This document shows positions 16,157 through 54,671 of a DNA stretch of 64,000 nt, one piece after another (the first letter of the stretch is position 1; the number at the start of each line of letters is the position of its first letter). The stretch spans positions 1-64,000 of the forward strand of contig JAJPKO010000050.1 in assembly GCA_021323655.1 (NCBI GenBank), in the 5' to 3' direction. The notes beneath the pieces were generated by a model. That model saw nothing but the letters and a program-made list of their open reading frames with translations. It was not told the DNA's origin and ran no database searches. Made by a program: the position numbers and the translations under genes. Source of the DNA: Acidobacteriaceae bacterium (lineage in GTDB: Bacteria; Acidobacteriota; Terriglobia; Terriglobales; Acidobacteriaceae).

Positions 16157-16482
16157 AAAGGCGCAGAAGTTTTTGCGGCTTTCGCCTGCTCGCGAAAGTC
16201 AGAAGGAAGTTTAAGGAATTTAATTATTTAGCCGGCCTGAGGCGGATCGCCCTGCCGGTCAGGACCAAGGAATGAGCGCGCTGAGACGGGTAACGGCCCC
16301 GCCAGACACATTGGCTGAAGTGGTCACAAAATCTCTGCGCCCAGATCGCCTTCCCGAACTCAACCAAAATCTTCACGGACCACGTCGGTCCCCTGAACTC
16401 TGGTGGAACACGGCAATCTCATCGTCATCTCTGGTCTCGTCCGGTTTTCCGGTGTGATCTGCCTCGGCTGTAAAGAGGCAGC
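16157..16482 (+). other. long leader between rodA and RNase E/G gene, structured
   Basis: The 326-base gap has no convincing gene. It contains several self-complementary stretches: GGCG-GAT-CGCC inside CCTGA...TCAGG (about 16236-16265), GTGGTC...GACCAC (about 16320-16385), and a hairpin directly in front of the start codon of the next gene (see separate entry). It is probably the 5' untranslated leader of the RNase E/G gene, possibly with an embedded small RNA. Confidence 0.35.
16459..16482 (+). promoter_or_regulatory. hairpin enclosing the RNase E/G ribosome-binding site
   Basis: CTGCCTC (16459-16465) can pair with GAGGCAG (16475-16481) around a 9-base loop, one base before the ATG at 16483. 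The only Shine-Dalgarno-like run (AAAGAGG, 16472-16478) is half inside the 3' arm. Folding would therefore hide the ribosome-binding site. Autocontrol of RNase E through its own leader is established in enterobacteria; here it is inference. Confidence 0.4.
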
Positions 16483-19430
16483 ATGTCAAAAGAAATATGC
16501 ATTTCCAGCACGCCGCATGAAACACGGCTTGCGATTTTAGAAAACGACCAGCTCGCTGAGATTTATTACGAGCGGGAAAATGAATATACCCTCGCCGGGT
16601 CCATTACAAAGGCCGCGTGACTCGCGTCCTGCCCGGTATGCAGTCCGCCTTTGTAGACCTTGGTCTGGAGCGCGACGCCTTTCTCTACGTCACCGATTTC
16701 CTCGAAGAACAGGAAGACTCCGCCGACTTTGAGCGCCTCAGTATGCCCCAGCCGCGGGAGGAGAAGGACCGCACACCTCATGTCCAAGAAGCAGACCAGC
16801 CGCAGTATGAATCCCATGAAGCCGAACAGGCCCCTGAAGGGACGCGCCGCTGGAAAGGCCGCCGCGGGCGTCGCGGACGTGATGGCCGTCCGCAGCATGC
16901 CTCCGGAGGCAACGGCCAGCAGAGAATGCCGCAGCCTTCGTCGACGGAATCGTGGGAGTCTCCCGAGGCTGTAGAAGAAAGCATCGCCGCCGAACCAACC
17001 CCAACGCCCGAGCATGGCGCTCCCGGCGGAATTCCCGCGACACACATCCCGGTGCTTCTGCCCGGCGAGTCACTCTCCAAGTACGGCGGAGGGCCAGCCG
17101 CATCGTCAGCGCCGGAAAAGCCAGCCGCACCTCGCCGTGTGTACACCACCTCCAAGCCTTCCACTTTGATTGAAGGCCCTATTGAGTGGAGCGGAGGCGA
17201 CCTGCTTCCCGGCGAATCGCGCGCATGGCGCTCCTCTCAACCTGCCGGAGAGGCCACAGCAGCCGTCGTGCCGGAGGTCCCCGAAATCCACCATGAGGAA
17301 GCCGTCGAGGCCTTTCCTGAAGCCGCCACTCCTGAAAGGGTGGAAACATCCGCTCCGGAACCTGCAGAAGATCCAGCAAACAAGACCCACGAGATCGTCT
17401 CGGCACCTCCAGCTGCTGCGGAAGCTCTGGCAGAAGCCGTCCCTGCTCCCGACCAGCAAGAGACAACCGGGCACATCGAAGAAGCTCACGAACATCAACC
17501 GAAAGAAGCCGGTGTCGCATCCTTTCCGCCTGCTTCTGGCGCGACAGATGAGCTTTCAGAAGTAGTCGAGCACGTGGAAGAGACCCACGAGTACGAGCCG
17601 GAGGAGGCAGAGGCTTCTCACCGCATAGATGTTGCCCCTCCCAGCGAGTTCCGCATCTCCACGCCATTGGAGGAAACGGAGCCAGAGCAGCACGACGTTC
17701 AGGAAACTGCTGCCGCTCAGCCCGAGTATGAGGTCGAGTATCAGGAAGAGGAGCAGCCATCTGCACCTGCGGAAACCGCGGCAGAAGAAGAGGAGCACCA
17801 TGCTCATCCCTTCGCTCCCGGTGCAGGCCTTCTCGAAGAAGAAGTGATTGATGAAGAAGAGTACGACTTCGAGCCCCTCCAGGCGCATGCCGATGAGCAG
17901 GACTTCGAGGACCTCGAAGAGCAGACGCTCGACCATGAAGAAAATGGCGCAGATCTCGGCGCCATGGTCCGCGACCTGCACATCAACCAGCGCGTGAATT
18001 TTGGCCCTGAAGGCGCTCTGGCGCAGGAGACCGAAGAAGAAGAAGAAGAAGAATGGCCCGTCGAAGCAACTGAAGAAGACGTGGAGGAAGGCGCGGAAGA
18101 GGAAACAGAAGAGCAGCCGCAGGAGCAGGCGCACCCGCAGCGCGAGCGCCGCCGCACCCGCGGACGCCATGGCCGTCGTCGCCACACCGGCGGTGGAATG
18201 CGTCGCGCCACCGCGCAGGTCGCGGACATTCCAGCCATCACCGAGCTGCTGAAGCCGGGGCAGGAAATCCTTGTTCAGATTGCCAAGGAACCTATCGCAA
18301 AAAAAGGCGCCCGCATTACCAGCCACATCGCGCTACCCGGACGCTTCCTGGTCTTTATGCCCACGGTCAATCACGTTGGGGTCTCGCGCAAAATTGCCTC
18401 CGACGACGAGCGTTACCGCCTCAAGCGCATCCTCATCAGCGAAAAGGGCACGGCATCGGGCGGCTTCATCGTCCGCACTGCGGCCGAAGGCGCCAGCGAA
18501 GATGAACTGCGCGCTGACCTCCGCTTTCTCATCAATCTCTGGAACGACATCAAGCAACGCTCAGACGATGCTAAGGCGCCTGCGCTCATCTATCACGATC
18601 TCAACCTGGTGGAGCGCGTGTTGCGCGACCAGGTCAGCGAAAGCTTCTCGACCATCTGGGTAGACAGCGAGACTGAATACGAGCGCGTTGTCCGCTTCCT
18701 CAATCGCTTCCAGCCCGCGCTGGTCCGTCGCGTCAAGCTTTATACAAAGGAGATGCCACTCTTTGAGCAGTTCGGCATACAGGACGAAATCTCCAAGGCG
18801 CTCAAATCGAAGGTTTGGCTCAAGTCCGGAGGCTCCATTGTCATCAACCAGACTGAGGCCCTGGTCGCCATTGATATCAACACCGGCAAGTATGTCGGCA
18901 AGACGGCCCGTCTGGAAGACACGATCCTGAAGACCAACCTCGACGCCATCCCTGAGATCGTTCGCCAGATTCGCCTGCGCGACCTGGGCGGAATCATCGT
19001 CATTGACTTTATTGACATGGACGAGCGCAGGAACCGCCAGAAGGTGATGCAGGCCCTCGAAGAGGAGCTGAAGAACGACCGCGCTCCATCAAAGGTCCTT
19101 CAGTTTAATGACTTCGGCCTAGTCGCCATCACTCGCAAGCGTGTGAAGCAGTCGCTCGAGCGCACTCTGAGCGTACCCTGCTACATCTGCTCAGGCACCG
19201 GAATGGTGAAAAGCCCGGTCACGGTCTGCAATGAGATCTACATCGAAATGCGCAAGATGCAGAAGCACCTGGAGCGCAACGATGTCCTGCTGCGTGTACA
19301 TCCGGAAGTGGTGAAGTCACTCAAGGCCAACAACGCGCGCTGGCTGACTGAGATGGAAGAGATGACAGGCAAAACCATCATCGTCAAAAGCGACCCCACC
19401 ATCCACCCCGAACAGTTCGACATCCACTAA
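16483..19430 (+). CDS. rng: ribonuclease E/G with giant acidic insertion in the S1 domain; one-base frameshift near start
   Basis: An endoribonuclease for rRNA/mRNA processing. The N-terminus (MSKEICISSTPHETRLAILE, ATG 16483) runs in frame to GSI, then needs one added T at about 16604-16605 to continue into YKGRVTRVLPGMQSAFVDLG. As written, the first frame stops at 16619, and the remaining frame could only start internally. The S1 fold is split: its first half ends near LYVTDF, its second half starts at ELLKPGQEILVQI, and about 505 residues rich in Glu, Pro and Ala lie between them. After that come the RNase H-like part and the catalytic DNase I-like domain with AIDINTGKYVGK and IIVIDFIDMD (the two metal-binding Asp). 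The Zn-link VPCYICSGTG follows. No C-terminal degradosome scaffold follows, so the 3' side is RNase G-like. The frameshift may be a sequencing error because the gene is otherwise intact. Total about 982 residues after correction. Confidence 0.9.
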
Positions 19431-54584: not shown

Positions 54585-54671
54585 TGGTGCCGAAGAAGGG
54601 ACTCGAACCCCCACACCCTTGCGGGTACATGGACCTGAACCATGCGCGTCTGCCAATTCCGCCACTTCGGC
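54585..54671 (-). tRNA. tRNA-Leu(CAG)
   Basis: An 87-base class II tRNA on the minus strand. Acceptor GCCGAAG pairs with CTTCGGC; discriminator A and CCA are encoded (54585-54588 on the plus strand complement). The anticodon stem CATGG/CCATG encloses TTCAGGT, giving anticodon CAG. The long variable arm (TACCCGCAAGGGTGT) and T-arm GGGGGTTCGAGTCCCTT are typical of tRNA-Leu. Confidence 0.95.

Follow-up and report, generated by a model that had tools for sequence, protein, structure and literature searches.

A Giant Disordered Insert in the S1 Domain of Terriglobia RNase E/G Carries a Conserved Peptide and May Act as a Degradosome Hub

The rne Gene of the Window and a Frameshift near Its Start

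The DNA analyzed here, referred to as the window, is a 64,000-nucleotide stretch of an Acidobacteriaceae genome (assembly GCA_021323655.1, contig JAJPKO010000050.1, positions 1 to 64,000). An open frame at 16584–19430 (948 aa) encodes RNase E/G from within the S1 domain through to the end of the protein, and over 18333–19145 it matches PF10150 with 348.1 bits against a curated cut-off of 25.5 (E 5.7e-104), this being the one RNase E/G match that the profile search returned from the genome. The features of the gene, all on the forward strand, are as follows.

16483–16604, forward: conserved N-terminal segment MSKEICISSTPHETR...LAGSI, in another frame here and in frame with the rest in the relatives L059, L069, and L072
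16604–16605, forward: position of a one-base frameshift relative to these three relatives (alignment)
16605–16700, forward: first half of the S1 domain, YKGRVTRV...FLYVTDF (open frame, structure match, alignment)
16701–18248, forward: S1-loop insert of 516 aa, acidic overall and predicted to be disordered (AlphaFold2 pLDDT mostly below 50)
16839–16889, forward: first Arg-rich patch, GTRRWKGRRGRRGRDGR (composition; motif sampler motif 1)
17049–17084, forward: conserved peptide PVLLPGESLSKY, copy 1 (motif sampler; 12-mer conservation test)
17202–17228, forward: second, degenerate copy of the peptide, LLPGESRAW (insert parse)
17838–17873, forward: acidic motif EEVIDEEEYDFE (motif sampler motif 4, which blends in another acidic stretch from the start of other inserts)
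17898–17933, forward: acidic motif QDFEDLEEQTLD (motif sampler motif 6, in 40 of 55 inserts)
17946–17996, forward: GADLGAMVRDLHINQRV, conserved among near relatives, a possible helix (alignment; short low-confidence AlphaFold2 helices)
18141–18197, forward: second Arg-rich patch, RERRRTRGRHGRRRHTGGG (composition; motif sampler motif 2)
18249–19427, forward: second half of the S1 domain, 5'-sensor, catalytic domain, CxxC link, and short C terminus (PF10150, alignments)

The conserved N terminus of RNase E/G, MSKEICISSTPHETRLAILENDQ, begins at the ATG at 16483 in a frame that differs from that of the remaining gene. Alignment with three relatives (L059, L069, and L072) shows a single base, present in all three, to be missing from the window between 16604 and 16605; the assembled rne therefore shifts frame near codon 41 and has no intact frame from its N terminus. 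In L059, which belongs to the same genus, rne reads through without a break, and among the other 57 Terriglobia proteins the start is missing only from L048 and L083, both cut by contig ends. The frameshift, which comes from one assembly, reflects either an error in sequencing or a mutation that arose recently; as the protein is otherwise preserved, with 81% identity to that of L059, any break is suggested to be recent or false.

The segments AIDINTG, VIDFIDM, and CYIC are retained in the window protein, and Asp-760, Asn-762, Asp-804, Cys-862, and Cys-865 (L059 numbering) are invariant across 11 aligned rows; we take the first three of these to be the catalytic residues and the two cysteines to be the zinc link of RNase E/G. 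The CPxCxGxG segment of RNase E is described as zinc-binding (PMC4245959).

A 516-residue Acidic Insert Interrupts the S1 Fold

In the window protein 516 residues separate FLYVTDF (ending at 16700) from LKPGQEILVQ (starting at 18249). An earlier note, made from the letters of this DNA alone, had placed an insertion within the S1 domain at 16705–18224, between LYVTDF and ELLKPGQEILV; the insertion is real and these limits are correct to within a few codons. In the structure match, query residues 5–39 match residues 42–76 of the E. coli RNase E chain 2vrt_A and residues 547–882 match 88–423, so that residues 77–87 of the E. coli enzyme (11 aa), which lie within its S1 domain (36–118), are replaced by 507 residues in the window.

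The composition likewise agrees with the Glu/Pro/Ala-rich acidic segment that had been described (Glu 20%, Pro 10.5%, Ala 13%, net charge −86), as does the presence of two basic patches, one near the start of the insert and one at its end, which correspond to the two Arg-rich patches listed above. Charge is strongly segregated along the chain, the segregation over 20-residue blobs exceeding that of shuffled versions of this insert by 10.4 s.d. A hydrophobic-moment scan with thresholds that we set found no amphipathic membrane helix of the E. coli kind in the window insert. Such a helix had looked suggestive by eye in L052 and L070, and was dropped when the scan returned three weak candidates among 74 inserts, the window not being one of them.

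Two AlphaFold2 models were considered, one of the ortholog L189 (mean pLDDT 62, pTM 0.55) and one of the window frame lacking the first 41 residues (mean pLDDT 56, pTM 0.39). The insert of L189 stays below 50 pLDDT almost throughout, with 61 at the LPGES peptide (residue 216), a short helix at 313–324 (pLDDT 62), and a longer one at 450–474 (pLDDT 76–81). The first half of the S1 domain is poor in both models. Foldseek found E. coli RNase E, its best E value being 4.7e-35, with a TM-score of 0.55 by target and an rmsd of 15.7, values which indicate that the arrangement of the subdomains is poorly modelled. In neither monomer model, both being blind to partners in trans, does the insert dock with confidence on the RNase E core.

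The Insert Is Found throughout Terriglobia

The set for Terriglobia, a class of soil-dwelling bacteria, comprises 58 proteins (the window and 57 others). In 55 of these, from 11 families and with the window among them, both flanks of the insert were parsed; L048 and L083 end at contig ends, and L149 did not match the parsing expression. Every one of the 55 carries a long insert (311–793 aa, median 490), within proteins of about 800–1300 aa. Arg/Lys-rich windows occur in the first 35% of the insert in all 55 and in the last 25% in 52, and these Arg-rich segments are by their sequence putatively RNA-binding. The most acidic part lies in deciles 6–9, and charge segregation ranges from z 2.1 to 13.5 (median 8.8). 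A C-terminal tail is absent from every Terriglobia protein that reaches its C terminus (contig ends truncate L081 and L082); the window protein itself, with a Cext of −2, holds no scaffold in the C-terminal position.

Although the frameshift in the window might be taken to favor an assembly artefact, and close relatives lacking the insert had been named in advance as the sign of a misassembly, the insert is present in 55 of 55 Terriglobia, and the one-contig genome L059, whose protein is 81% identical overall to that of the window, bears the same motifs in an insert of 478 aa; an artefact is next to inconceivable as the origin of the insert. A second set, of named genomes, gave an LPGE-type motif in 21 of 22 Terriglobia-like loci, L171 having variants only, although this set overlaps the first (L162 equals L052 in length and motifs).

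An RNase E/G match was obtained in 56 of 61 genomes (that of the window and 60 relatives). One genome, G025 (99% complete), yielded neither an RNase E/G by family search or by search with the L059 protein nor the LPGES pattern described below, possibly through true loss of rne or through an assembly gap.

A Conserved LPGES Peptide Lies within a Fast-evolving Insert

The earlier note had proposed a search of the insertion for short linear motifs, and this search revealed a conserved peptide, (I/V)LPGES(L/I)(S/A)KY; like the frameshift, it is absent from that note. In 55 inserts a motif sampler ranked PIVLPGESLSKY first, with a log-likelihood ratio of 1311 against 163–173 for three shuffled sets, a difference whose significance is overstated because the shuffle control ignores the shared ancestry of the proteins. 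The core [LM]PGE occurs in all 55 inserts and the strict form [LM]PGES[LI][SA]K[YF] in 46, the other nine lacking it. There are 1–3 copies per insert, and the best copy lies mostly at 25%–43% of its length.

To put no expression into the comparison, the window insert was divided into its 505 12-mers, each of which was matched against the 18 inserts from the ten other families. The best kept was PVLLPGESLSKY, whose best matches average 69%, against 41% (s.d. 6) for all 12-mers and 62% for the best found elsewhere, in the Arg patches. This test replaces an earlier figure of 76% motif identity against 31% for the rest (772 cross-family pairs), which is inflated because the expression fixes LPGE beforehand. 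The remaining insert sequence, in contrast to the peptide, is fast-evolving.

At the level of DNA, a pattern for the peptide gave 53 matches in 42 of 61 genomes, with none for the reversed control. By their coordinates 46 of these lie within rne upstream of the catalytic domain, three lie in rne 5' halves on separate contigs (once in G006 and twice in G042), and four fall outside rne (G056, G033 C9, G057 C112, and G057 C147). The genome of the window has a single match, at 17058–17084. Some of the 19 genomes without a match still hold the peptide in rne (such as L062, with Met for Leu, and L075), since the pattern omits some codons and residues. Synonymous codons differ among the matches, which indicates that selection acts at the level of the protein. 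Within the genomes searched, the peptide is nearly confined to rne.

A Single Position on the Phylum Tree and a Second Peptide in a Sister Group

The phylum sample held 198 genomes, 173 of them with an RNase E/G match, and among the matches listed we read 40 loci from 32 families, a choice of our own that leans to long frames. Three states were seen in the loci read: no insert, an S1 insert, and a C-terminal tail. These were placed on a quick maximum-likelihood tree of 93 rows from which the S1-loop columns were excluded, an S1 insert being counted from a limit of at least 100 residues that we set. On this tree, which carries a long-branch warning and 23 open forks and does not include alpha-proteobacterial or plant rows, all 44 rows with such an insert fall on one side of a branch (SH-aLRT 94, narrowly missing the starred level). 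The C-tailed rows, 15 in number from 14 genes (L090 duplicating L134), form a separate clade (SH-aLRT 100, starred). Two changes, the fewest possible, account for the three states, against 39.1 when the labels are shuffled. The seven rows nearest to the S1-insert set have 0–64 extra residues.

These results divide the claim of the earlier note that the scaffold of the E. coli enzyme has here moved from the C terminus into the RNA-binding domain. A scaffold-like disordered region does lie inside S1, and the Terriglobia enzymes have no C-terminal tail, but relocation finds no support, as S1-insert and C-tailed proteins separate on the loop-free tree. On the simplest reading of the sequences, there was apparently one expansion of the S1 loop in a single-gene lineage rather than relocation of a C-terminal tail. 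Copy number agrees with this reading: one RNase E/G copy was found in each of the 14 non-Terriglobia genomes read that have an S1 insert of at least 100 residues, and two or three copies in the 14 genomes with a C-tailed protein; the single copy was nevertheless dropped as a hallmark of the S1-insert form, as families without an insert may also have one gene. A further form, with N-terminal scaffolds (extensions of 300–600 aa in several members of the phylum), was also withdrawn, since the open upstream frame in L128 looks like high-GC noise and an open frame was the sole support for the others.

None of the other 19 S1 inserts read from the phylum contains the LPGE motif. Instead, [FLI][EQ]R[IV]xD[DE][ED] occurs in 12 of these 19 (19 copies, with 0.005 expected from shuffles) and in none of the 55 Terriglobia inserts, and all 12 proteins with this FERI motif fall in one starred clade of 14. 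Neither motif was seen in the 15 C-tailed rows (14 genes). This sister group, which includes L177 of the Pyrinomonadaceae, resembles Terriglobia in using the same S1 loop on the same side of the branch and in having Arg/Lys-rich windows towards the ends of the insert, and differs in its peptide, with the FERI motif in 12 of the 14 clade members. The FERIxDDE-like peptide is present in 1–2 copies (L115, L121, L126, L127, L141, L142, L146, L147, L172, L174, L176, and L177), and several of these peptides are followed by a helix-like stretch, KDA..Q..I.

Proposed Function of the Insert

We consider it probable that the insert is an internal degradosome hub, in which the Arg patches hold RNA and the LPGES peptide docks a partner. 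Tethered beside the RNA channel formed by S1 and the 5'-sensor, the patches would hold RNA for the active site, the peptide would be the main docking site for a conserved partner, and the acidic stretch might keep the loop extended or compete with RNA. The loop would in this way perform, from within the RNA-binding domain, the role of the C-terminal tail in E. coli.

The main rival is a lid acting in cis, where the acidic segments or helices sit in the enzyme's own RNA channel, mimic RNA, and gate activity, with LPGES docking on RNase E itself. The helix of the Caulobacter S1 insert is reported to protrude into the predicted RNA site, where acidic residues could mimic RNA (PMC4245959), and the peak of acidity in deciles 6–9 of the Terriglobia inserts would suit such a role. 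The AlphaFold2 models give it no confident docking (pTM 0.55 and 0.39), although a monomer model at such depth is weak evidence, and LPGES is found in 0 of the 19 other S1-insert enzymes of the phylum, though their channel should be similar. We regard the lid as unlikely, albeit deserving of serious attention.

Less probable still, and by some distance, is that the charge blocks drive condensates with RNA, phase-separating in the manner of the C-terminal domain of RNase E in Caulobacter and docking nothing in particular. The charge segregation of the inserts (median z 8.8) is what such a driver would have, the PNPase of the same genome and of seven relatives with a recovered tail ends in a Gly/Arg-rich tail, and PNPase is stimulated by RNase E condensates according to PMC10412687; charge blocks, however, have no need of a conserved LPGES peptide. 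A neutral expansion of low-complexity sequence in a tolerant loop, for which the range of lengths (311–793 aa) and the biased composition could be adduced, is very improbable given that the motif is conserved across 11 families and that each of the 55 parsed proteins has a long insert.

Candidate Partners in the Genome

For a hub of the kind proposed, the genome offers one full PNPase and an RNase J. No RNase Y was found in it above the cut-off, a single 20-bit match remaining below. Twelve matches to the DEAD domain were obtained, the best of which, L235, is by its sequence a DEAD-box RNA helicase of 372 aa that ends at the helicase core. Docking in the manner of Caulobacter was accordingly rejected, since this best of the 12 matches lacks the C-terminal extension of the RhlB type that it needs.

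PNPase is put forward as the first candidate partner for LPGES because the genome has one and because short peptides that bind PNPase have been acquired independently in RNase E (PMC4435900), although we think it rather doubtful that it will prove to be the partner. RNase J, a DEAD-box helicase, enolase, or a ribosomal or lineage-specific protein are further candidates. The PNPase gene of this genome (L234, C8:29484–31529, complement) encodes a tail of ~100 residues, acidic and then Arg/Gly-rich. Gly/Arg-rich tails are found in this genome and seven relatives (eight tails recovered from 30 loci, a ninth being broken), and six of the eight recovered tails, that of this genome included, hold an NFNR peptide (30 loci tried).

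Comparison with Known RNase E Systems

Inserts in S1 are known as such, Voss et al. (2014) having described them in alpha-proteobacteria and plants with lengths of 50–150 residues (PMC4245959), against 311–793 in Terriglobia. The insert of Caulobacter crescentus RNase E is close in kind, as it too lies within S1, is charged and predicted to be disordered, and adjoins the RNA site, which it reaches (PMC4245959). It differs in that the Caulobacter enzyme also has a disordered C-terminal scaffold, where that of Terriglobia is tail-less, and in that its S1-containing fragment binds RhlB through a C-terminal extension of the helicase (PMC4245959), which L235, the best of 12 matches, does not have. 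The LPGES motif is not among the features of the Caulobacter insert described in the accessible portion of that paper (PMC4245959). 4OXP aligns from query residue 549 at chain position 167, compared with 88 in E. coli 2vrt (the right flank being the one aligned), so that the extra residues of 4OXP would precede the same point.

In Proteobacteria, degradosomes are scaffolded by regions of RNase E that are disordered, rich in Arg, and motif-bearing (PMC4435900, PMC11964227, PMC10412687). The Terriglobia insert shares with the E. coli type of C-terminal scaffold a great length, disorder, Arg-rich patches, and conserved microdomains amid fast-evolving sequence (PMC4435900). It differs in position, inside S1 instead of C-terminal, in lacking a membrane helix in the window copy, and in its motif, which is unlike the microdomains that the excerpted text of PMC4435900 names for RNase E of the E. 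coli type. No report of inserts in Acidobacteriota RNase E, or of LPGES in RNase E, was found among the open-access papers listed, as judged by their titles and abstract beginnings. A 2011 survey tabulated the RNase E of Fibrobacteres/Acidobacteria at a length of 511 aa and predicted no potential for a degradosome (PMC3071783), in contrast to the Terriglobia enzymes of about 800–1300 aa.

What is new, then, is the class-wide giant S1 insert without a C-terminal tail, the single position of the S1-insert form on the tree within the phylum, and two lineage-specific peptides, LPGES and FERI, that look like docking sites by their sequence. It is quite possible, and we put it forward tentatively, that Terriglobia have a previously undescribed degradosome, built outward from S1 and held by a class-specific docking peptide, LPGES(L/I)SKY, and that the sister group uses another peptide at the same site, giving one hub with two exchangeable partner sockets that goes back to a single ancestral expansion of the S1 loop. 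The system would provide a clean case of a disordered hub arising within a folded RNA-binding domain, with sister lineages carrying different docking-like peptides at one S1-loop site, and the short LPGES handle makes the putative partner directly accessible to pull-down.

The rne Leader

The leader of rne (16230–16482) is conserved between the window and L059, L069, and L072, and matched no Rfam family at the gathering threshold. A pairing CTGCCTC...GAGGCAG could mask the ribosome site right before the ATG at 16483, an indication that we consider weak. In 57 of 72 Terriglobia leaders the ribosome site is mostly paired in the best fold, that of the window having only one of four bases paired. 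Mean pairing of the leaders is 0.79 against 0.71 for shuffled upstream sequence, being higher in 51 of 72 and within the top 5% in 14 of 72. The sole Rfam match of the window at the gathering threshold is a tRNA gene at 54588–54671 on the minus strand.
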